Position numbers and translations under genes: made by a program. This document shows, piece by piece, positions 42,731 through 53,658 of a stretch of DNA of 64,000 nt (its first letter is position 1; each line of letters opens with the position of its first letter). The stretch is from Gammaproteobacteria bacterium 45_16_T64. GTDB lineage: Bacteria; Pseudomonadota; Gammaproteobacteria; Pseudomonadales; Ketobacteraceae. The stretch spans positions 64,196 to 128,195 of the forward strand of contig MABD01000047.1 of the NCBI GenBank assembly GCA_002162955.1, given 5' to 3'. The notes below the pieces were generated by a model, which made no database searches, was not told the origin of the DNA, and saw only the letters and a list, made by a program, of their open reading frames with translations.

Positions 42731-45142
42731 CTAAGCTCGCGATAACACCCCAGTGGATGTCATTGAATTCTTATCATTTGCACCCGCTGAACGTTTTCTA
42801 TCTTTTCTACCGTCAATAAACAGTAATAGGGGAACAAAAAACAAGAAGTTCACTGCAAGCGCTATAGCCACCGTGATAGCCGTTAACATTCCCATACTGG
42901 CATTAGGATAATAATGAGACGTTGCCATCATGCCAAAGTTTGAGGCCAACACTAACGTCGTCGCGATCAATGCTATACCAACGGTCTTAAACGCATAGCG
43001 TGTTGCTTCAATACTGGACAACTGATTCTCTCGACGAGCACGAATATATTTGCTTAGAAAATGAACCGTATTATCAATCACAATACCAAGAGTCATACAG
43101 GCTACGATACTAATCGCAATACCAATCTGCCCTTTCCACAACCCCCAAATACCGAAGGAAATTATCGCAGGAAATATATTAGGCAAAATACTCAATAAAC
43201 CATACTTCACCGAACGTAGGGCAACAATTAACAACAGAGAGACGACCAACAGAGCCAACCCTGTTCCCACCAACATACCTTTAATATTGTGGTATGAAAG
43301 TTCACCTAAGAGTAAGTCGAAGCCAACACCTTGAGTTTCCATACGCTCAGGTAGATTGTCGACGATCCACTGCCGCGCAGAACGTTCAAACGCAATAATT
43401 TCATTAGAGGAGACCGTGGTCATTAATACATCAACACGAATAGATGAACGGTTTATATCAATTTGGTTCTCTAACCCTAAACCAAACGGTAATGACATCT
43501 GAAACATTAGCGTATATTGAGAAATTAATTCCCGTTGATCAGGGATAACATAATAACTTACGTCACCCCCGTTCATATCTCGATTCAGGCGCTTAATGGT
43601 GTCAGAGAAACTGGAAACGAACATAACTCCCTGCTCCTCTCTTGCCCAATCGACAAACCGATCAACACTTTGCATATATTCTGGGTCCATAATCCCCGTT
43701 TCTTCACCCGACGGAAACGCAAACTGAATACGGTGATGACCCGTTAATTCGTCCACCATAAATTGGGTCGAATTACGGACTTCAAAAGACTCATCAAAAT
43801 ACTCAAACCAAACGTCGTTAAACTCATTCTTGAGACTGCACACCCCAAGTATGGAAAAAATAGACGTGGAAACGATAAACACCATCACCCGGCGATCAAT
43901 CACAAAGTCAGCAAATTTATTCATATAACCCTGACTAATGGATTCCGAACGATCACCACGGGATTTAAACTTAAACTCCGGCAATACCATCACCGCCGCC
44001 GGAAGAAACACGATAGACAAATACCACGCGGCCATAACACCGATCGATACCAAATTCCCCATATCAGCAAACGGCGGCGATTCAGAATTATTCAAAAATA
44101 GAAACCCAATCGCCGTCGTCACACTGGTCAAAAACACTGGTTGCATATTAATACGTAAGCTCTCGAGCATCGCCTCACGCTTCACCTTACCTGCGATAAT
44201 TTGATGCTGATAGGAAAGTAATATATGTATGCTGTCCGCTACCGCTAACGTTAAAATGATGGCCGGTGCGCCCCCCATGACCGGCGTAAACTCAATCCCT
44301 AACCACGCGATTATTCCCAACCCCACTACATTCGATAAAGCAATAATGCAGTAAGTAAGAATTACAGAGGCAACGCTACGTAGCATTAAATATAAACAGA
44401 TGATAACCGCAATAGTGCTATACACCGATGTAGTGCTCAGCGCATCTTCAGTGGCTTGTTTCGACGCATCTTTAAACGCTACATGACCAGATAGAAGAAA
44501 TTCAACATCAGGGTATTTTTGTCGAAACTCATCTCTTACCTGACGCGCATACTCCATGATCATCGGTGCGTCACGCCCACCTTCGTTGTCTGCTAACACC
44601 GCGACATTCACGGAAGCAACATGACCACTGAGTGAAATCACATTTTTGACGAGGTTCGGTTCGCTCAATGCTATTTTCTTGATTTTCGCGAGCTGTGTGT
44701 CAGTCAAGGATTCAGGCTCGTCTACCAAATAGATGATATCCAGGTCATCCCCTGACACTTCGGTATGCTGAAAATTAACCAGCGAATCTACCCTAAGGGT
44801 TTTTGGTACAGTCCATGCGCGCTCGGTCAATTCGTGCAACATGGTAAGGTTTTCACGGGTAAAAATGTCGTTATTCTTAGGGTGGATGATAAAAACGACG
44901 TTATCATCTTTGGTAAAGCGTTGCTCAAGATCCACAAGCAACTTCATACCCTCATTATTTTCAGAAAAAAGAGCCCGAGGGTCATTGTTCAATTCAGCAA
45001 ATCGCAGACCGGAACCCGCGGCTGTAACCATCACCAGCGTAAACAAGATACAAAACCATGGATGATCCACGATAAACTCTTGAATTTGGTGAATAAACCC
45101 AGAAGTTTGTGATGATCCTGTCTGAGAATTCTTATTCATCAT
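42731..45142 (-). CDS. RND superfamily exporter (MMPL/SSD type)
   Basis: A large 803-aa inner-membrane protein with the duplicated RND layout: TM1 (about 20-40), a periplasmic loop, a block of five or six helices from about 225 to 400, a second single helix and loop, and a final block from about 610 to 785. The fourth-helix region has IILTLAVADSIHILLSYQHQ and the equivalent ACMTLGIVIDNTVHFLSKY; the paired acidic residues (AD, ID) fit proton coupling. No membrane-fusion or outer-membrane partner is adjacent, so lipid or hydrophobe export of the MMPL/HpnN kind is likelier than tripartite drug efflux. I chose the ATG at 45142 over a GTG at 45178. Confidence 0.88.
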   Translation of the reverse strand: MMNKNSQTGSSQTSGFIHQIQEFIVDHPWFCILFTLVMVTAAGSGLRFAELNNDPRALFSENNEGMKLLVDLEQRFTKDDNVVFIIHPKNNDIFTRENLTMLHELTERAWTVPKTLRVDSLVNFQHTEVSGDDLDIIYLVDEPESLTDTQLAKIKKIALSEPNLVKNVISLSGHVASVNVAVLADNEGGRDAPMIMEYARQVRDEFRQKYPDVEFLLSGHVAFKDASKQATEDALSTTSVYSTIAVIICLYLMLRSVASVILTYCIIALSNVVGLGIIAWLGIEFTPVMGGAPAIILTLAVADSIHILLSYQHQIIAGKVKREAMLESLRINMQPVFLTSVTTAIGFLFLNNSESPPFADMGNLVSIGVMAAWYLSIVFLPAAVMVLPEFKFKSRGDRSESISQGYMNKFADFVIDRRVMVFIVSTSIFSILGVCSLKNEFNDVWFEYFDESFEVRNSTQFMVDELTGHHRIQFAFPSGEETGIMDPEYMQSVDRFVDWAREEQGVMFVSSFSDTIKRLNRDMNGGDVSYYVIPDQRELISQYTLMFQMSLPFGLGLENQIDINRSSIRVDVLMTTVSSNEIIAFERSARQWIVDNLPERMETQGVGFDLLLGELSYHNIKGMLVGTGLALLVVSLLLIVALRSVKYGLLSILPNIFPAIISFGIWGLWKGQIGIAISIVACMTLGIVIDNTVHFLSKYIRARRENQLSSIEATRYAFKTVGIALIATTLVLASNFGMMATSHYYPNASMGMLTAITVAIALAVNFLFFVPLLLFIDGRKDRKRSAGANDKNSMTSTGVLSRA

Positions 45143-45191
45143 TATTGTCTCTACGTTATTAGTATTATCGGTAGACACAATCCAGAATGTG

Positions 45192-45344: not shown

Positions 45345-48056
45345 CTATGCGGTAAAAACGCCGATTTCTTCAGCTTTTGACACTGCCTGCGTTCGACTCT
45401 TAACCCCCAACTTTTCATAGAGGTTTCGCACGTGTACCTTAGCTGTATTGCCGGAAATCGACAGTTGATCGGCAATTTCGGCGTTCTTTAGCCCTTGTTT
45501 AATTAGCCAAAGTATTTCCACCTCCCTTGGCGTCAAGCTATCACATACTTTAGCGCTTTCCCGCTGTGCCTCTTGGTTTTGAATATTACCTGGTTCCAGC
45601 GCGGATTGACGAGATAGCTCATCTCGATAGCTCAGCAATGTAGCGCTCAGCCCTCTCAGTTGGGTAAGTATTGGAGCAACGACATCCCAGTCGTCCAAAA
45701 AGATCCGGCAATAACCTGATTTCTCACCCATCTCAAGCGCCTGTATCAAAGAACTACGGGCCAAATTCTGATTGCCTTGGGCCAAGCACAACCTAACTTG
45801 CAACACGAGGCCCCGAACGTAACTAATCACCCGCCCAGATCGTTGAGCATCTTCCAAAATAAGCGACAGAAGCGATTGAGCGGCCGCATATTGACCTCGC
45901 ATAATATCTATACGAATCAACAGCGCTCTTTCTTCTTCGCTACGGTAAAACGTAATCGATCGTAGCCTTTCCTGCTCTTTATCGGCCCAATCCATTGCCT
46001 CCTGCTCACGACCTTCAAGCAACGCCAATTTGATGCTAAACACCGAGATTGGCGACGATATAAATGACCAGAAGCTAAGGTGGTCCGAAAACCCCTGCTG
46101 CGCAATACTCAATAAATTTTTGGCTTCTTCATATCGCCCCGCACTGATCAGTGCATTAGCGTAGGTAATATGCGTCAGCGCTTTCTGACCAGGCATCGCC
46201 GTTGAACTTGCGTAGTCACCTAAACGTTGCCAACATTCTTCTACTTTATCGAACTGATTAATTTCGCGATACATATCCAACGTACAAATATACGACCAAC
46301 CGATAGCCAGCTCTTCATCCATTTCAACGGATTCAATCCATTGATGAAATTGAGAAAAACACTCGAACGCTGCGTTTACATCCCCCGCATAATATGTTGC
46401 CATACCCAAGGTTTGCGCCAAACCAAGGGCGATAAACTGATTATTCTCTCGCTGAGCCTTACCCAAAATCGCTGGGCCATGTTTTACGATATTCCCCATA
46501 TCTCCACGTACAAAATAGTCAATCACCACACCAAGCTGCAACCCCAAATCTTCATCTTTGTGATCACTTTGAATCAGCGCCTCATGATCTGCGATCAATC
46601 GTCTGGCCCCCTGGGGGTCACCCGCAATATGCGCAAGTTGGGTACGATATACCGCGATATGACTGAACATTTGCTTTCGTTCATCTTCAGGCATAACAAC
46701 AGAACCAGAATTAAGCAGCTCCTCAATGCGTGCCAAATAGGATTCGGCGGGGGTAATATCGTTACTTCTAAACAAAGACCACGCTTTAATAAGCAATAAT
46801 TTTGGTCGATGCTGCCATTGCTCTTCAGGCAATTTACGAAGCAATGTTTCTGATAGAGAGTCCTCACTACCTAATACACGCCCATAGCTAATATATTCCA
46901 CCATAGATGCGGCTTTATCCCATTCCTGGGCTAGCACGTAATGTTCGATGGCTTCTTCTTTATTGTCCATCGCTTCAAATGCCAGCGCTATCCGCTGATG
47001 TAATGCGAACCTCTCCTGCTGTGGTTTTGCTTCAAAATGTGGTTTTAGTGCTTCGCGAAACAGTTCATGGAACCGAAACCAATGCTCTTCTCCATGCAGA
47101 GGTTGAACAAAAAGGTTTTTATCCTTGAGTATCTGGATTATGTCGTGGCTATCACTTTTACCATAGATGGCATCCAGCAAGCTCGGTGAAAAACACGTCA
47201 ACATTGACGCATTTACCACAAAATTCTTAAGATCCTGGTCCAGGCACGATATCACTTCATCAAATAAATAGCGGATAACCTCCTCATCCAAATCCGATAC
47301 CGCTTGTGTAAACACGCTATTCTCATTGATTACGGAAGAATTCCGTTGCATTGAAAGCACTGCAAGTTGTATTGCAGCAGCCCAGCCTTCAGTGCGTTTA
47401 TGCAATGCAAAAACACTATCTTGCGTCACCCCACCGGGTAATCTCTGTTGAAGAAATAGCGCAGTTTCTTCTGGGATAAACGCCAAGTCCACACTTGTCA
47501 GTTGAACGAGTAACCCCCTTACTTTACGACGCTCAATAAACAACGGCGGTTGCGTACGACTGGCTATCACTACATGCAATGTGGGTGGTAAATTATCGAG
47601 AAAATATGACACACTATCATGTATTCGACTGTGATTAATCACGTGATAGTCGTCTAGTACAAGCATTAGGGGGGCTGGGCCGGTAATAACCGATGATCCT
47701 GTCAACAGCTCGTTCACCAGTGACTCAACGATGGTATCAGCATCGTCTTCTAGACTTTCCCCAAGTAATTCTTGGGTTTTCGGTACCAACCCCGTATCAA
47801 AGCGCTGGATCGCCCCGACAACGTAACGCCAAAATCGTAAGACGTCATTGTCCCTGCTATCAAGAGATAACCATATTGGCGTCAATGAATTTGACGCTAA
47901 CCATTGCATGATAAGTGTCGTCTTCCCATAACCCGGCGGTGCTTGGAGCAAACTCAATTGTGCAGGATTAGGGCGCCCAATACGCTCGAGTAAACGCTCT
48001 CTTAACATCAATTGTGGCGGTATTACCGGTAATAGGAACTTGGTCTCTAACAACAT
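45345..48056 (-). CDS. MalT-like LuxR-family ATP-dependent regulator (LAL/STAND)
   Basis: A 903-aa regulator of the MalT class. The N-terminal NTPase has the P-loop APPGYGKTTL (near residue 44) and a Walker B-type LMLVLDDYHVI. Long helical repeats (TPR-like, about 400-800) form the inducer arm, and the C-terminal LuxR helix-turn-helix is SLTPREVEILWLIKQG then IADQLSISGNTAKVHVRNLY. The family binds inducer and ATP, oligomerises and activates. I prefer the ATG at 48056 (MLLETKFLLP); one six codons earlier is possible. It reads toward the RND gene, with a dyad between, and is divergent from the small LuxR gene. Confidence 0.92.
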   Translation of the reverse strand: MLLETKFLLPVIPPQLMLRERLLERIGRPNPAQLSLLQAPPGYGKTTLIMQWLASNSLTPIWLSLDSRDNDVLRFWRYVVGAIQRFDTGLVPKTQELLGESLEDDADTIVESLVNELLTGSSVITGPAPLMLVLDDYHVINHSRIHDSVSYFLDNLPPTLHVVIASRTQPPLFIERRKVRGLLVQLTSVDLAFIPEETALFLQQRLPGGVTQDSVFALHKRTEGWAAAIQLAVLSMQRNSSVINENSVFTQAVSDLDEEVIRYLFDEVISCLDQDLKNFVVNASMLTCFSPSLLDAIYGKSDSHDIIQILKDKNLFVQPLHGEEHWFRFHELFREALKPHFEAKPQQERFALHQRIALAFEAMDNKEEAIEHYVLAQEWDKAASMVEYISYGRVLGSEDSLSETLLRKLPEEQWQHRPKLLLIKAWSLFRSNDITPAESYLARIEELLNSGSVVMPEDERKQMFSHIAVYRTQLAHIAGDPQGARRLIADHEALIQSDHKDEDLGLQLGVVIDYFVRGDMGNIVKHGPAILGKAQRENNQFIALGLAQTLGMATYYAGDVNAAFECFSQFHQWIESVEMDEELAIGWSYICTLDMYREINQFDKVEECWQRLGDYASSTAMPGQKALTHITYANALISAGRYEEAKNLLSIAQQGFSDHLSFWSFISSPISVFSIKLALLEGREQEAMDWADKEQERLRSITFYRSEEERALLIRIDIMRGQYAAAQSLLSLILEDAQRSGRVISYVRGLVLQVRLCLAQGNQNLARSSLIQALEMGEKSGYCRIFLDDWDVVAPILTQLRGLSATLLSYRDELSRQSALEPGNIQNQEAQRESAKVCDSLTPREVEILWLIKQGLKNAEIADQLSISGNTAKVHVRNLYEKLGVKSRTQAVSKAEEIGVFTA

Positions 48057-48301
48057 AAAGCGGCATAACCCCATAAGCGACGGAAAGATTGAAACGAAAT
48101 GTTAACCCAACCTCAACAACCAACATTCGACTCTTACCTTTACATATTCCACATGCTAGAGTTACCGAGTCTATTGGGGGGTAGGCAAGTCGTTTTCACA
48201 TACTAGCAATGGATCGCAGGCGTTCGCAAGCACGTTAGTGCACCTCTAGCCAATGAAAAACAGTATTATTCTCACCTAAAAAACAATGCCGCAACGCTAA
48301 T

Positions 48302-49075
48302 ATGGATATTTCTCACTGGATACAACAGCTCTATTCTAGTATTGGGCGCAGCACATTTGAGGACATAGAAAGGCAGATTCTACAATACCCATGCACCGAA
48401 GGTTTTCAGCGGCCACAGGCTTTAGAACAGTCGATCAAAAAAGCCCGTGAATTGCACCAGCAAAAGCTGCAAAAACAACATTCGCTTCGTGCCCTTACCC
48501 AAACACTAGAACATTTAGAATTTGCTTTTTTTCGATTTACCGAGACAGGAGTCCCCGTTCAATCCAACCAAAGTGCACGACTCCTCTCACCACAGGAACA
48601 ATCTGCAAAGGCAACGTTCTCCAGTGAGTCCATATCTAGCTTTCAAATGAAAGACTGGTATCGACAAATACACCCTATGCTTGAAAAAGGCCCCGTCAGT
48701 AACATATATGGACGCGTCTCGTTCGAAGATAAGAATACCGGATTAATTCCCGCCGTGTTGTTACCAATAATCGATGACAGCACTCAGGCTACATCATGCA
48801 TATTGTTAGCAGGCATAAATAATATGGACCCCTTCTGGATACCATTGGTATTGGATGACTATAAACTCACACCAAAAGAAAACCAACTAGCCACATTGCT
48901 TATTCAAGGATTCACAAAAAAAGATCTCGCGGCGGTACTCGGAGTTTCCCCTGAAACCGTAAAATCCCATACCGCCAACATTCTTAAGAAAACAGGTCAC
49001 CAAAACCAGCTCAGCCTAATTAATCAGACGTTGGGGCGAATCCCTCACTGCATCACGTCTAAGACGTACGAATAA
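48302..49075 (+). CDS. LuxR-type helix-turn-helix regulator
   Basis: A 257-aa protein with a C-terminal LuxR domain (about 188-250; KLTPKENQLATLLIQGFTKK, VSPETVKSHTANILKKTG). The N-terminal 180 residues match no sensing domain I recognise: no phosphoacceptor receiver and no AHL-binding signature. It is 27 bp before the first regulator-hydrolase fusion gene on the same strand, so the two are likely cotranscribed. It is divergent from the MalT-like gene across 245 bp with no gene. Confidence 0.85.
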   Translation: MDISHWIQQLYSSIGRSTFEDIERQILQYPCTEGFQRPQALEQSIKKARELHQQKLQKQHSLRALTQTLEHLEFAFFRFTETGVPVQSNQSARLLSPQEQSAKATFSSESISSFQMKDWYRQIHPMLEKGPVSNIYGRVSFEDKNTGLIPAVLLPIIDDSTQATSCILLAGINNMDPFWIPLVLDDYKLTPKENQLATLLIQGFTKKDLAAVLGVSPETVKSHTANILKKTGHQNQLSLINQTLGRIPHCITSKTYE

Positions 49076-49102: not shown

Positions 49103-50800
49103 ATGGACGAGACCCTCCTAGAGCCGACACAATATCAAAAAGAAAATTTGACGTTGTCACTGTACACCCAAGGCATTGATCTTTTTACCTTCGCTGATTT
49201 CTTCACTGAAATTATCGATGCTATCATTCTGCTCTCGGATATAAATACACAAGATATAGAATCGTCAATACAGCACCTAACACCACATTTATCGCACCTC
49301 ATAGATATAATTTCTGCTAATGAAACCTTAGATTCTAATATCGAGAAATTAATCGCGACTATATACCAACTACCAATCAACATTGTGTTGCTTGATGACA
49401 ACGTCATTCTATCGGCGTCTAAAATAGCCCACTCATTCATTACCAACAATCCAATTACGCCATTTAACGACAACCTAGTTTGTAGTGAGTCCCCATTGTG
49501 GACAACCATCAACAATCACCCACACACTGCGACAACGTTGACGATAGCCAAACACCAGTATTTTTACATACCACTAAGCACCGCAACACAAGCCAATAAT
49601 CACTATAGTTGTCTATTTATTGAGAGCGACAAAAATGACAACAATCAAGCCTGGAGCGTTGATACTCTCAAGGCACTATTTAGCCTGACAAAGCGTGAAT
49701 CCGAGATCCTAAGTGTCTGGTCCCAGAGCAATGACATAGTTACTACCGCAAAGCTATTGAACCTCAAAGAAAATTCTTTGCGGCAAAACCTAAAGAAAAT
49801 CAGGGAAAAGTTGGGGTCCAATTCACAAAAAGACATGCTTACTCAATTGCTTCGCACCTACCCCATTGCAAACGCAACAACAACGTTGAGCACACAAAAT
49901 AATCCAGCAGATAAAATCCTAACACTCTATGATAAACGGCAACTTTCCTATCGGGACATTGGCCCTGCGACAGGTCACCCAGTGATATATATGCATTCTC
50001 TGGCAGGATCAAGAAAAGAACAACTCGTATCCGAAGACTATCTAACTCGCAACAACATCCGCCTAATCATACCCGAACGTCCAGGATACGGTCTCACCTC
50101 ACCAAACCCATACATATCCCTAACAAGTACAATCACAGAAAGCGTTCAACTCATTGAACATTTAGCGATTGATACATTTTCAATTATTGGCCATTGCACT
50201 GGGAGCCGGTATGCCACTCATTTGGCTGCACACTTCAAGAGCAGAGTTAAACAGTTAACTCTCGTGTCTTTTATTCCACCGGGGAAACTCAGTTTATCTG
50301 TATCGCAAAAATTCCCAGATCTATTTTCAATCGGGCAATGGACCTACAAGCGAAGCCCCCTATTTGTTAACAAAATACTCACAATTTTATACCGAGGCGA
50401 TCCGAAAAAACAATTGCAACGTTACATTAACTCTAGCCATTCAATGCATGCTCTCCCTCCTATGGACGTAAATCTATTCTCCCGTAAAAAGTTCTTTGAA
50501 TACTACACAGACAGCCTTATCGAAGGTCTAAAATATGGGCCCCAGACATACGTTCAAGAGCTAGAATTCCTACTTCAAGATAAAGGTAATCACCTATCTG
50601 ATATTACCGCCCCCACTTACATCTGGCACGGAGAGCAGGACAGCATTGTAGATCAGCAACGATTGGTGGGCTTTGCGGATTTACTACCTCTTCGAAAAAT
50701 ACACCGCATCATCGACGAAACCCACTTTCTTTTCTTTCGCAATGCGGAAAAGATTTTTGATAGCATAATGACTACGCCCGTTCAATTCGAACCAGCGTAG
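49103..50800 (+). CDS. LuxR-type HTH fused to alpha/beta hydrolase (paralog 1, Cys nucleophile)
   Basis: A 565-aa three-part protein. Residues 1-185 are an uncharacterised sensor-like domain with a PAS-like stretch (LPINIVLLDDNVIL). Residues 192-255 are a LuxR-type helix-turn-helix (SLTKRESEILSVWSQS, LKENSLRQNLKKIREKLG). Residues 270-560 are an alpha/beta hydrolase (PVIYMHSLAGSRKE, PERPGYG). The nucleophile elbow is GHCTG with Cys365 where Ser is usual; the other likely catalytic residues are D513 (WHGEQDS) and H541 (DETHF). There is no signal peptide. Paralog 2 is at 51988. The role is unknown; a regulator that binds or cleaves its own ligand is an inference. Confidence 0.85.
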   Translation: MDETLLEPTQYQKENLTLSLYTQGIDLFTFADFFTEIIDAIILLSDINTQDIESSIQHLTPHLSHLIDIISANETLDSNIEKLIATIYQLPINIVLLDDNVILSASKIAHSFITNNPITPFNDNLVCSESPLWTTINNHPHTATTLTIAKHQYFYIPLSTATQANNHYSCLFIESDKNDNNQAWSVDTLKALFSLTKRESEILSVWSQSNDIVTTAKLLNLKENSLRQNLKKIREKLGSNSQKDMLTQLLRTYPIANATTTLSTQNNPADKILTLYDKRQLSYRDIGPATGHPVIYMHSLAGSRKEQLVSEDYLTRNNIRLIIPERPGYGLTSPNPYISLTSTITESVQLIEHLAIDTFSIIGHCTGSRYATHLAAHFKSRVKQLTLVSFIPPGKLSLSVSQKFPDLFSIGQWTYKRSPLFVNKILTILYRGDPKKQLQRYINSSHSMHALPPMDVNLFSRKKFFEYYTDSLIEGLKYGPQTYVQELEFLLQDKGNHLSDITAPTYIWHGEQDSIVDQQRLVGFADLLPLRKIHRIIDETHFLFFRNAEKIFDSIMTTPVQFEPA

Positions 50801-50832
50801 CCATTTCACGTCCATCAAAAGATATCTAGATA

Positions 50833-51621
50833 CTACTCTTGACGATCACCCACCTGCTTAATTTTCACATCATAACCGTAAGCAGCTAACAGCAACTCAC
50901 CATTAATAATATCGGCTACGGGGCATAACACGCCGTCGAATAATTCGTAGCTGGTATAAAGACGTGAACCACCACCAAATGCCGATGATAGATCCATATT
51001 TCCAACTAGGCCACCAACATGTGTGCTAGGACAATTTAAAGGGTTAGGGGTTTGCGTTGCCCCAGAGGTTGCACGAAAGAACCACCCAGTATTACTTACC
51101 CATACTTTATCGCCGCGATGCTCTGTCGTGCCATCCGCATAGGTGTAATCCATGGAACCTAGACCGCCAAGCCATCCATCAGAGTTAATGGTAACCTGCA
51201 CATCAGTAATCAACGTTTGTGCAAAATAGTCAGCGACCGACTGTAGCGATGCAACAGCGTCTTCTGCCAAATCATCGCAATACTCTTCACGTGCAACAGG
51301 ATCTGCGTTCAAGATAACAATCCCTTGACATAAAGCACTTGCTTGCTCGCGATAGCTCTCCACTTCTGTTTGATCTAATTGTCCAGAAGTACAATCGATT
51401 GAAATATTCTGTGTAACGCTCTGCCCTACGGAATCGAACGTTGCATCACCAGAAGATTCAACCACTGCATAACCAATTCCAGCAGCCAACTCCATGGAGC
51501 TACACCCTGCTTCCATTACATAAAGGCCTTCATATCGTTCAGTGTTCGCATTCGCATTCAACGCAATTGTCGCCGATCCAACAAGCAACGCAGCGCTTGC
51601 CAGTGTGGTATTTATTTTCAT
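50833..51621 (-). CDS. Secreted hypothetical protein with six cysteines
   Basis: A 262-aa protein with a signal peptide (residues 1 to about 26, ending ALNANA). The mature part is acidic and has six cysteines (AGCSSMEL, SIDCTSG, ALCQGI, EYCDDLA, LNCPSTH, VLCPVAD), enough for three disulfides, as expected for a periplasmic or extracellular protein. Gly- and Asp-rich strands follow (WLGGLGSMDYTYADG). I recognise no family. I chose the ATG at 51621 (MKINTT): AAGGA lies 8 bases upstream, while it nearly abuts the ATG at 51630. It sits on the opposite strand between the two regulator-hydrolase fusions. Confidence 0.75.
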   Translation of the reverse strand: MKINTTLASAALLVGSATIALNANANTERYEGLYVMEAGCSSMELAAGIGYAVVESSGDATFDSVGQSVTQNISIDCTSGQLDQTEVESYREQASALCQGIVILNADPVAREEYCDDLAEDAVASLQSVADYFAQTLITDVQVTINSDGWLGGLGSMDYTYADGTTEHRGDKVWVSNTGWFFRATSGATQTPNPLNCPSTHVGGLVGNMDLSSAFGGGSRLYTSYELFDGVLCPVADIINGELLLAAYGYDVKIKQVGDRQE

Positions 51622-51807
51622 GACGTTCATCCTTATAGTGATCTATTTCCATTCAACTACCAAGTCTTGGCGATTGATGCTAAGTAGGTCCAAGACGCCC
51701 CCGCCTCGAACCCAGCAAGATCATAACCAATGAATCACGATAAAAAATACTACCAAAAGGGGGAGAACACTTGGCTAATCAAACTACCAAGCTTATAGAA
51801 CAAACAG

Positions 51808-51828
51808 ACCTTGTCATTACAAGTGTCA
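51808..51828. promoter_or_regulatory. Dyad between the secreted protein and paralog 2
   Basis: GAC-CTTGT-CATT-ACAAG-T-GTC: a 5-bp perfect repeat extended by GAC/GTC with one bulge, about 20 bases, lux-box-sized. It lies in the 366-bp divergent gap (51622-51987), which otherwise shows no gene. It is a candidate site for one of the LuxR-type proteins nearby. Confidence 0.35.
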
Positions 51829-51987
51829 ATTAGGCCATAACCCGCGCGTACTTCGCTGTTTGCCATGGTAAGATGACGCTGTTCTCACACGAGTAAAATT
51901 ACGCGCGATCAATATCGTCGAATTAATAACCTGATAGACGACACAATCTACTATTATCAGCCAAATCATAGGACGATAGGCTTTACA

Positions 51988-53658
51988 ATGATAAACACCC
52001 TCTCCTCTCCTATAGATCAAGAAGGCCTCACTTTATCGCTATATACTAATGGTATTGACCTTCTTACTTTTACACGTTTTCATATAGATGTTATTGAAGC
52101 AATAACCCTATATTCGTCCTACCACGAAGCGGACCTTGAAAGATGCATTGATCACCTAACGCCCCATTTGGTGCAACTCACAACACTGATAAATGAAGAG
52201 GAAGCGCTCAATTCAAGTATTGATGATATTAACGAAGCCATCGTCAACCTCCCCATAAGCATGATTATTATTAAAAACAATATCGTTATTACGCAAACTG
52301 CACTTGCGCAAAAGCAGATAGAAAATAATCAACCCAATACGATTTGTAATAACACAATACTTAAGCACTCTGAACTCTGGAAATTCATTGTGCTAAACAA
52401 ACATACTGAAGCAAGACATGACGCTGAAAAAACTCAGTATTTTTTCATCCCATTGACTGATTCACCCAAAAACAATTCTGTCTTTGGGTGTTTATTTATC
52501 CAACCTAAAGATGAAATAACGACGGATAACACATTAGAAGCCGAGGCAATATCCTCCTTCTTTGGTCTTACCCGCAGAGAGTCTGAAATCGCCAACACCT
52601 GGAGTAAATCACCAGACATAAGTGATGCCGCCAAATTACTAAGGTTAAAAGAAAACTCCCTCAGGCAATCCTTAAAACATATCAGAGAGAAGCTAGGCGT
52701 AAACGATCAAAAAGATCGACTCACCTTACTATTACGATCTACTCCTATCGCACACCACCGAATACACAGGAGAAACAACGAGAACGCATTCGACAATACG
52801 ATCACACTTCCCAACAATCGCACGCTGTCTTATCGAGGTATTGGCCCTATCGAGGGCTACCCTGTTCTATATCTACACTCAATGTTTGGCTCACGAAAAG
52901 AGCAAATGGTTGAAGAAAATTACCTGTTCAAACACAACATTCGACTCATCATTCCTGAGCGCCCAGGTTTTGGAAAATCTTCCGCCAACAAACACGGGAG
53001 TTTACGCAGTACTACAGATGACTTGATCTATCTTATAGACAGCCTTGGCGTTGATCATTTTTCAATTATTGGCTACAGTGTCGGCTGCAGCTACGCAACA
53101 CTTCTCGCTGCGTATTATGGCTCTCAAGTCAATCAGTTGATCATGGTCTCTTGCATGCCTCCCGGCCAATTCTGCTTTCCCGATAAACAGCGCTTTCTCG
53201 ACCTCTTCTCCGTAGGAAAGTGGGTTCACGATCGCAGCCCTTCATTTCTGAAAATGATGATTAAGCTCTTGTATAAAGGTGACCCTAGAATGCAATTGCA
53301 ACGTCAGTTAGATTCACCTCCTAGCCTATATGCCTTACACCCTAAGGATGTTGCCTATTTCTCCCAGCCACAGAATTTTGAGAACTATGTTCAGAGCTTT
53401 ATTGAAGCGCTCACCCAGGGATCAGATGCCATAGCCCAAGAATTGAATTATATATATCAAGAAAACGAAGAGCACCTCTATAACATATCAACACCTACTT
53501 ACCTGTGGCATGGAGAAGATGACAGCATGACAAGCTCCCTTCGACTACCCGCATTATCAGCGATGCTGCCCTTGAGAACCGTTCACCGGATTGAGGGAGA
53601 AACCCATAATTTGTTCTTTCGAAAGGCAGAAGCCATTTTCGATGATCTAATCATTTAA
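51988..53658 (+). CDS. LuxR-type HTH fused to alpha/beta hydrolase (paralog 2, Ser nucleophile)
   Basis: A 556-aa protein with the same architecture as the gene at 49103: sensor-like N-domain (GLTLSLYTNGIDLLTF matches LTLSLYTQGIDLFTF), central helix-turn-helix (LTRRESEIANTWSKS, LKENSLRQSLKHIREKLG) and C-terminal alpha/beta hydrolase (PVLYLHSMFGSRKEQM, PERPGFG). Here the elbow is GYSVG with S364, and the triad is completed by D512 (WHGEDDS) and H540 (GETHN). The hydrolase therefore looks active. It starts at an ATG with a modest AGG site. Its stop overlaps the convergent aminotransferase by 4 bp. Confidence 0.86.
   Translation: MINTLSSPIDQEGLTLSLYTNGIDLLTFTRFHIDVIEAITLYSSYHEADLERCIDHLTPHLVQLTTLINEEEALNSSIDDINEAIVNLPISMIIIKNNIVITQTALAQKQIENNQPNTICNNTILKHSELWKFIVLNKHTEARHDAEKTQYFFIPLTDSPKNNSVFGCLFIQPKDEITTDNTLEAEAISSFFGLTRRESEIANTWSKSPDISDAAKLLRLKENSLRQSLKHIREKLGVNDQKDRLTLLLRSTPIAHHRIHRRNNENAFDNTITLPNNRTLSYRGIGPIEGYPVLYLHSMFGSRKEQMVEENYLFKHNIRLIIPERPGFGKSSANKHGSLRSTTDDLIYLIDSLGVDHFSIIGYSVGCSYATLLAAYYGSQVNQLIMVSCMPPGQFCFPDKQRFLDLFSVGKWVHDRSPSFLKMMIKLLYKGDPRMQLQRQLDSPPSLYALHPKDVAYFSQPQNFENYVQSFIEALTQGSDAIAQELNYIYQENEEHLYNISTPTYLWHGEDDSMTSSLRLPALSAMLPLRTVHRIEGETHNLFFRKAEAIFDDLII

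Follow-up and report, generated by a model that had tools for sequence, protein, structure and literature searches.

Two neighbouring LuxR-type regulators fused to alpha/beta-hydrolase domains, and a family in which the nucleophile varies

The window analysed here, a 64,000-nucleotide stretch of DNA from Gammaproteobacteria bacterium 45_16_T64, holds two paralogous genes whose products each carry an alpha/beta-hydrolase domain behind a LuxR-type helix-turn-helix (HTH), with a cysteine at the nucleophile position in one copy and a serine in the other. The pair raises the question of whether a hydrolase domain that is part of a DNA-binding regulator serves to cleave a substrate or to bind a ligand.

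Architecture of the two paralogs

P1 (49103..50800, + strand, 565 aa) and P2 (51988..53658, + strand, 556 aa) are encoded by unbroken reading frames with no stop across any domain, and align over 545 positions, with a single gap, at 47% identity. In each, the N-terminal half and a central LuxR-type HTH precede the hydrolase domain in one chain. P2 contains the motif GYSVG, and alignment places S364, D512 and H540 in a predicted triad; P1 contains GHCTG, and its D513 and H541 align with D512 and H540 of P2, giving, by alignment, a Cys-Asp-His arrangement around C365. The domain order and the Ser and Cys elbows that an earlier note on this DNA had described are thus borne out, and its proviso that a frame error might have joined separate proteins falls away, since there are no stops and the one-chain form recurs in 88 proteins.

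Profiles support the hydrolase assignment, with Abhydrolase_1 (Pfam) above its cut-off in both proteins (E 9.6e-17 for P1 and 6.1e-17 for P2) and matching at E<=0.01 in all 34 family members tested. Dienelactone hydrolase has a Cys nucleophile; the Pfam DLH profile matched neither P1 nor P2 at E<=0.01, and matched one of the 34 family members. In the predicted structure of P1, residue 365 lies between a strand (359-364) and a helix (367-381), that is, at the nucleophile elbow, in a block with a pLDDT of 95, which disposes of the possibility, raised in the same note, that C365 sits elsewhere. Among the matches listed, the best for the P1 hydrolase domain (265-561) was chain 9wlv (Z 28.9, 285 aligned), and the plant receptor D14 (3w04) gave Z 23.0.

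The HTH is divergent: GerE (Pfam) scored 16.9 bits on P1, below its cut-off of 23.5, and did not match P2 at E<=0.01. Its assignment as LuxR-type follows from the alignment of the paralogs, from GerE, which at E<=0.01 matches 21 of the 34 family members, and from the predicted fold of the N-terminal half of P1, in which residues 191-254 form a four-helix LuxR-type DNA-binding fold (7ve5 and 1zlj, Z 9.6) preceded by a PAS fold. The best Foldseek matches of this half were VqmA (7dwm, 5.3e-5) and EL222 (3p7n, 6.3e-5), and comparison with 6ide gave Z 9.6 over 149 aligned residues at an rmsd of 8.8; TM-scores in the PAS-LuxR comparison were low, leaving the arrangement of the domains unsure. The model suggests a PAS-LuxR unit resembling VqmA and EL222. 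VqmA and EL222 terminate with the HTH. P1 and P2 share with them (7dwm, 6ide, 3p7n) the order of PAS and then LuxR-type HTH in one chain, but add an N-terminal helical stretch and the C-terminal hydrolase, so that the HTH is not C-terminal. The inputs of those proteins (DPO and light, from the entry titles) are not implied for P1 and P2, and no autoinducer-binding domain (Pfam) was found in either at E<=0.01.

Divergence between the paralogs is uneven, with 58% identity in the HTH, 53% in the hydrolase core and 27% in the PAS region, the most diverged of all. The DNA-reading helices are nearly alike (ENSLRQSLKHIREKL at 222-236 of P2 and ENSLRQNLKKIREKL at 223-237 of P1), so both proteins probably act at overlapping sites, whereas the divergence of the PAS region suggests that they may sense different things.

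Variation of the nucleophile in the fused family

We analysed 88 fused proteins, P1 and P2 included, from several proteobacterial classes (at least four, by record titles), and the genome of P1 and P2 holds a third copy. The idea of an architecture unique to this window is thereby ruled out; the central HTH followed by a hydrolase, which the earlier note had called unusual, is a real order that is not peculiar to this locus. A scan of named genomes with P2 as the only query found nothing. Two loci from the named scan that are not LuxR-fused (L164 and L200) were left out of the 88, and four fused ORFs that are short at the N-terminus (L082, L085, L087 and L119) are counted among fused proteins. 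One further fused protein (L154:2999-4750, Cys-Asp-Arg), in a record titled as a Pedobacter MAG, stands outside all counts; with it the total would be 89, and Ser would remain at 40.

The nucleophile position is occupied by Ser in 40 of the 88, by Cys in 14, Val in 9, Glu in 7, Ala in 5, Thr in 3, Gly in 3, Asp in 2, Leu in 2, Met in 2 and Gln in 1, an assignment that in remote members depends on the alignment (the anchor, G366, is present in 83/88). At least 20 changes at this position are required on the tree of the 88. A complete Ser-Asp-His triad is found in 30 proteins, among them P2, and is incomplete in 58; the catalytic His is kept in 46. Conservation lies elsewhere, in residues of the scaffold and the HTH: R325 and G286 are present in 88/88, G327 and K235 in 87/88 and E198 in 86/88. 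Stand-alone relatives, which were found by similarity (the 79 loci listed, of 227 relatives), carry Ser-Asp-His in 54 of 55 cases (24 clusters at 50% identity) and in 20 of 23 cases in a second set from which five fused or fragment rows (L082, L085, L087, L089 and L119) are left out; one of the two search patterns for these controls includes the acid Asp, and Asp counts are biased there. That nucleophile and triad vary while the scaffold is kept, in contrast to the stand-alone relatives, argues that catalysis is not the conserved function of the fused family. Most likely, judging from these sequences, its hydrolase domain became a ligand-binding regulatory domain; the earlier suggestion that the fold may bind rather than cleave is supported.

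Other observations speak against this reading. The full triad does persist in a third of the members, and at 50% identity, where the 88 collapse into 51 clusters, half of the clusters (26) are Ser throughout, 25 are without Ser and 19 have a Ser-Asp-His member. P1 itself may have kept activity as a Cys hydrolase, given that its Asp and His are present and that Cys can serve as a nucleophile. Separately, linked loss of Ser and His was considered and rejected: the raw counts are suggestive (both kept in 30, both lost in 32, His only in 16, Ser only in 10), whereas independent pairs give no significant association (7 pairs, median p 1).

Genes and elements beside the regulators

Upstream of P1, ending 27 bases before it on the same strand, lies a gene for a 257-aa regulator (48302..49075, + strand; GerE 40.2 bits) that has the same N-module and LuxR HTH without the hydrolase; an HMM of the N-module of the fused family matched it with E 1.4e-22 in a one-sequence search. 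Between P1 and P2, convergent with the former and divergent from the latter, a gene on the - strand (50833..51630) encodes a 265-aa protein with a predicted signal peptide and no Pfam match. A search of 57 genomes for its homologues returned, besides its own genome, one weak match (2.8e-5), in a genome (G014) where no fused protein was found. By its position, this gene is a candidate target. An imperfect inverted repeat (51913..51978; 24-base arms, 18 apart) ends 9 bases before the start of P2 and might be an operator, a weak candidate in that a repeat of equal score arose in 1 of 40 dinucleotide shuffles, making it marginally unusual. No word of 9 bases or more is common to the intergenic stretch upstream of 48302 and the one upstream of P2.

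Across the family, the divergent upstream neighbour is a predicted lipoprotein for 15 of 44 fused genes as against 14 of 222 control genes (signal peptides and lipoboxes being called by a simple in-house rule); the test at the level of clusters counts a cluster once any of its members has such a neighbour, against an uncollapsed control, a design that favours a link. The divergent neighbour in the window is a signal-peptide protein and not a lipoprotein. Predicted lipoprotein genes accompany 11 of 28 Ser and 4 of 16 non-Ser regulators, so the pairing is present also where the nucleophile has been lost. The divergent lipoprotein gene is a likely regulatory target.

A ligand-binding reading and its alternatives

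On balance, we lean towards the view that P1 and P2 are one-component regulators in which the hydrolase domain is a second, ligand-binding regulatory domain and hydrolysis is optional. Behind the N-terminal helical stretch, the PAS-like domain would sense or relay a signal and the LuxR-type HTH would bind DNA, as in VqmA and EL222. A small molecule held in the former active-site pocket could then shift the PAS-HTH part to another conformation or affect its dimerisation. With its triad, P2 would be able to turn the ligand over, and P1 might hold it longer or bind another; position and the neighbours of relatives make the nearby secreted-protein gene the likeliest local target. A more specific version, which we put forward tentatively, is that esterase folds were converted to receptors repeatedly and independently on a PAS-LuxR chassis, often beside a gene for a surface lipoprotein, and that here the Cys copy would keep its ligand as a long-lived covalent adduct, with the Ser copy resetting.

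The nearest described concept is RsbQ/RsbP-PAS of Bacillus subtilis and others, in which an alpha/beta hydrolase and a PAS domain form a sensory module with varied outputs (phosphatase, histidine kinase or diguanylate cyclase; PMC3183031). There RsbQ is a separate protein encoded upstream whose triad is required, and binding of its product to the PAS domain is proposed but not demonstrated. An equivalent in cis, in which each chain's PAS domain binds the product of its own hydrolase and P1 is a working Cys hydrolase in the manner of dienelactone hydrolase, would suit both the joining of the two domains in one protein and the aligned catalytic residues of P1 and P2. We nevertheless think it rather unlikely, because the architecture is kept although most of the family lacks a complete triad and 28 of 88 members have Val, Ala, Gly, Leu, Met or Glu at the nucleophile position. 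P1 and P2 differ from the RsbQ/RsbP-PAS system, as it is described there, in being single chains with a LuxR HTH as output. RsbQ structures were absent from the sequence matches at E<=0.01 and from the best 50 fold matches listed, with which kinship is still compatible.

Neighbouring paralogs that have Ser and Cys elbows and almost the same DNA-reading helix could instead divide the labour, P2 hydrolysing a signal ester or lactone that P1 binds. Such a split, proposed in the earlier note, is conceivable for this pair but is no family rule, in that the four other neighbouring pairs observed (genomes G018, G095, G019 and G192) have the same nucleophile within each pair (Ser/Ser twice, Glu/Glu twice); the diverged PAS regions, moreover, suggest differing inputs. 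Nor did the proposed lactone find direct support: the sole Autoind_synth match in the genome, at 22.3 bits, lies below the curated cut-off of 24, in a search that matched 0 of 14 control genomes and whose sensitivity is unproven. We regard this division as improbable. Less probable again is a trigger enzyme, in which a regulator carries an ordinary esterase of metabolism and reads the metabolic state from how far that esterase is occupied by its substrate. It could draw on the NCBIfam matches of P1 and P2, which are partial, all below cut-off, and fall on esterases, enol-lactonases and similar enzymes, but the triad is often incomplete, and only one neighbour cluster with more than two members looks metabolic (three genes beside one clade, read as malate dehydrogenase-like from their N-termini).

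The plant proteins D14 and KAI2 are separate soluble receptors that work through partner proteins and have no HTH. Under the ligand-binding reading, P1 and P2 would resemble them (3w04) in the receptor use of an alpha/beta-hydrolase fold, but with that fold fused to the HTH. PqsE, according to PMC9715718, is a hydrolase-fold protein that supports the LuxR-type regulator RhlR apart from any enzymatic role; it is a separate protein with another hydrolase fold (metallo-beta), and RhlR binds C4-HSL. We found no description of a LuxR-HTH/alpha-beta-hydrolase fusion in titles and abstract openings, a survey that covers subscription papers and bioRxiv thinly; the earlier note, which knew of no such system, agrees with this, and RsbQ/RsbP-PAS is a close conceptual precedent.

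The fused proteins constitute a natural series in which one regulator-fused, hydrolase-like domain has changed its nucleophile again and again on a constant scaffold, and with which the passage from enzyme to receptor can be tested directly. They also represent a class of sensor without a description that we could find in the searchable literature, spread over proteobacterial classes and with candidate output genes adjoining. If the tentative version with repeated conversion to receptors is true, P1, P2 and their relatives would be the bacterial equivalent, within a single protein, of the hydrolase receptors of plants.

Neighbouring P1 and P2 paralogs and their predicted folds

P1 (49103–50800, forward strand, 565 amino acids) and P2 (51988–53658, forward strand, 556 amino acids) are intact open reading frames whose products align pairwise at 47% identity with a single gap, and in both the C-terminal half matches Abhydrolase_1 above the Pfam cut-off. 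As judged from sequence, the triad of P2 would consist of S364 (in GYSVG), D512 and H540, and its likely counterparts in P1 are C365 (in GHCTG), D513 and H541, the latter two aligning with the acid and histidine of P2. The earlier note, which had described two LuxR-HTH/α/β-hydrolase paralogs with a serine and a cysteine nucleophile, was right. Pfam supports the HTH only weakly: P1 scores 16.9 bits with GerE, below the cut-off of 23.5, and P2 gave no GerE match at E ≤ 0.01, a level reached by 21 of 34 family members.

In a model of full-length P1 built from 34 sequences (mean pLDDT 80.8), a strand at residues 359–364 and a helix at 367–381 place C365 at the nucleophile elbow. Residues 265–561 of the model match α/β hydrolases (best 9wlv, Z 28.9, 285 residues aligned), among them the plant receptor D14 (3w04, Z 23.0); D14-type receptors act via partner proteins. 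Residues 1–262, modelled separately from 36 sequences (pLDDT 78.9), comprise in order a long helical stretch, PAS-like strands and helices, and a four-helix HTH. The best Foldseek matches of this N-terminal half were VqmA (7dwm, 5.3e-5) and EL222 (3p7n, 6.3e-5), and LuxR HTH structures matched it over 191–254 (Z 9.6); because TM-scores to the matched chains as wholes are low (at most 0.35), its domain arrangement is unsure.

A 257-amino-acid regulator encoded on the same strand (48302–49075) ends 27 bases before P1 and contains the N-terminal module and HTH of the fused family but lacks the hydrolase (E 1.4e-22 with the HMM of the family's N-module, searched against this one sequence); it is perhaps close to the ancestral form of the fused regulators. 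Also to the left, on the reverse strand, lie genes for a 909-amino-acid MalT-like LuxR regulator (45345–48074; 394 bits, below the NCBIfam MalT cut-off of 537) and an MMPL transporter (42731–45178). Just before the start of P2 is an imperfect inverted repeat (51913–51978), equalled in score by 1 of 40 shuffles. Another contig of the genome encodes a third fused paralog, with GYSVG (locus L003:928–2613); ahead of it lie two genes for secreted proteins, of which one has thrombospondin type 3 repeats and the other an NlpE-like match. Elsewhere in this genome, a 271-amino-acid frame (locus L215, contig C26) matches Autoind_synth below the cut-off (22.3 against 24 bits).

Distribution of the fused architecture

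When the four other genomes of the genus were searched with P2 at E ≤ 1e-12, none yielded a fused protein, and the only match was a hydrolase, in genome G003. We used a profile, A1, built from 11 fused proteins; since at most three candidates were scored per genome, all genome counts from it are lower bounds. In the order, at least 102 of 390 genomes matched at E ≤ 1e-30, many through one half only, and at least 17 of 390, by row count and with the genome itself included, gave full-length fused matches at E ≤ 1e-80. At E ≤ 1e-65 the profile hit at least 15 of the 369 class genomes, which by row count comprise 9 with fused proteins, the genome itself among them, and 6 with a hydrolase only; in the phylum it hit at least 22 of 398 genomes, again counting the genome itself and including some partial matches. 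Fused proteins among the best 79 loci of 227 relatives in a named scan included, by record title, those of Ralstonia, Solimonas, Woeseia, Phenylobacterium, Gallionellaceae and Zetaproteobacteria. That the architecture is peculiar to the window is ruled out by these fused proteins in many other genomes; it is part of a widespread family, for which we found no name. A further fused protein with a Cys-Asp-Arg triad (L154:2999–4750), left out of all counts, lies in a record titled as a Pedobacter MAG, outside Proteobacteria if the title is right.

Five neighbouring fused pairs were seen. Besides P1/P2 these are Ser/Ser pairs with one gene in between (genomes G018 and G095) and adjacent Glu/Glu pairs (G019 and G192), so that the Ser/Cys split was seen only in the P1/P2 genome. 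Loci L047, L049, L114 and L115 hold tandem fused regulators whose two copies are alike in having Glu in place of the nucleophile and Asn in place of the acid. The P1 branch (0.44) is not longer than that of P2 (0.63), which offers no hint of decay in the Cys copy. The DNA-reading helices of P1 and P2 are nearly identical and their PAS domains share only 27%, which suggests that the two may recognize common DNA sites in response to different inputs. Of the two, P2 may act by cleavage and P1 by trapping.

Divergent genes for predicted lipoproteins

A divergent upstream neighbour is present at 44 fused genes; in 15 cases it encodes a predicted lipoprotein and in 11 another signal-peptide protein. 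The corresponding numbers for 222 other genes of the same loci that also have such a neighbour are 14 and 42 (lipoproteins, 15/44 versus 14/222, Fisher p 2.9e-6). When the fused genes were grouped at 50% identity, a lipoprotein neighbour was present in 13 of the 28 clusters (p 1.8e-7); this test is biased toward the link, since one member suffices for a cluster to count and the control genes were left ungrouped. The pairing occurs with 11 of 28 Ser and 4 of 16 non-Ser regulators. These neighbouring genes are likely outputs of the fused regulators. By eye, about 10 of the 15 lipoproteins have a Gly/Ser-rich stretch after the lipid cysteine and then an Ig-like domain; they gave only a handful of Pfam matches, most of them weak. 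Examples with a Gly/Ser linker and an Ig-like N-terminal domain are L095:12094–14415, L140:4855–7086, L143:1–885, L147:581–2941 and L150:3–1457, and divergent lipoprotein genes of this kind are common beside fused regulators in Gamma-, Beta- and Zetaproteobacteria, going by record titles. P2's own divergent neighbour, a 265-amino-acid protein encoded between P1 and P2 (50833–51630, reverse strand), has a signal peptide predicted by our own rule and lacks a lipobox.

Nucleophile turnover on a kept scaffold

In 88 fused proteins (69 deduplicated reading frames and 19 from the named scan), the nucleophile column holds Ser in 40, Cys in 14, Val in 9, Glu in 7, Ala in 5, Thr and Gly in 3 each, Asp, Leu and Met in 2 each, and Gln in 1. 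We count at least 20 changes of nucleophile on the tree, with Cys gained or lost at least three times, numbers that are approximate because the tree was built by a quick method and contains several long branches (flagged for the tree of the 69 rows). The catalytic His is kept in 46 of 88, the acid Asp in 76 and the complete Ser-Asp-His in 30. By contrast, R325 is invariant (88/88), G286 (88/88) and G327 (87/88) are kept, and the HTH columns K235 and E198 are kept in 87/88 and 86/88. Collapse at 50% identity left 51 clusters, of which 26 are all Ser, 25 are without Ser and 19 have a Ser-Asp-His member.

As a control, 54 of 55 stand-alone relatives have Ser-Asp-His (24 such clusters at 50% identity), as do 20 of 23 in a second control from which five fused or fragment rows were dropped. 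Both controls were collected through sequence similarity; of the two named-scan patterns one spans the acid, and neither spans the elbow or the His. In the fused set Ser and His are both kept in 30, both lost in 32 and mixed in 26, and their co-loss was not significant on seven independent pairs (median p 1).

A search of titles and abstracts, with passages of PMC13136126, PMC2447327, PMC12937710 and PMC12077149, found no paper on a LuxR-HTH/α/β-hydrolase fusion. In the literature as far as it was available to us, the nearest described idea is RsbQ/RsbP-PAS: PMC3183031 reports 45 homologues of RsbP-PAS that have RsbQ as partner and a phosphatase, histidine kinase or diguanylate cyclase output, and its main text does not mention LuxR. 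In PqsE–RhlR a LuxR protein has another hydrolase-fold partner (PMC9715718). The best reading, toward which we lean slightly, is that the fused proteins are PAS–LuxR regulators that carry a hydrolase-derived regulatory domain, with catalysis being dispensable for the family.
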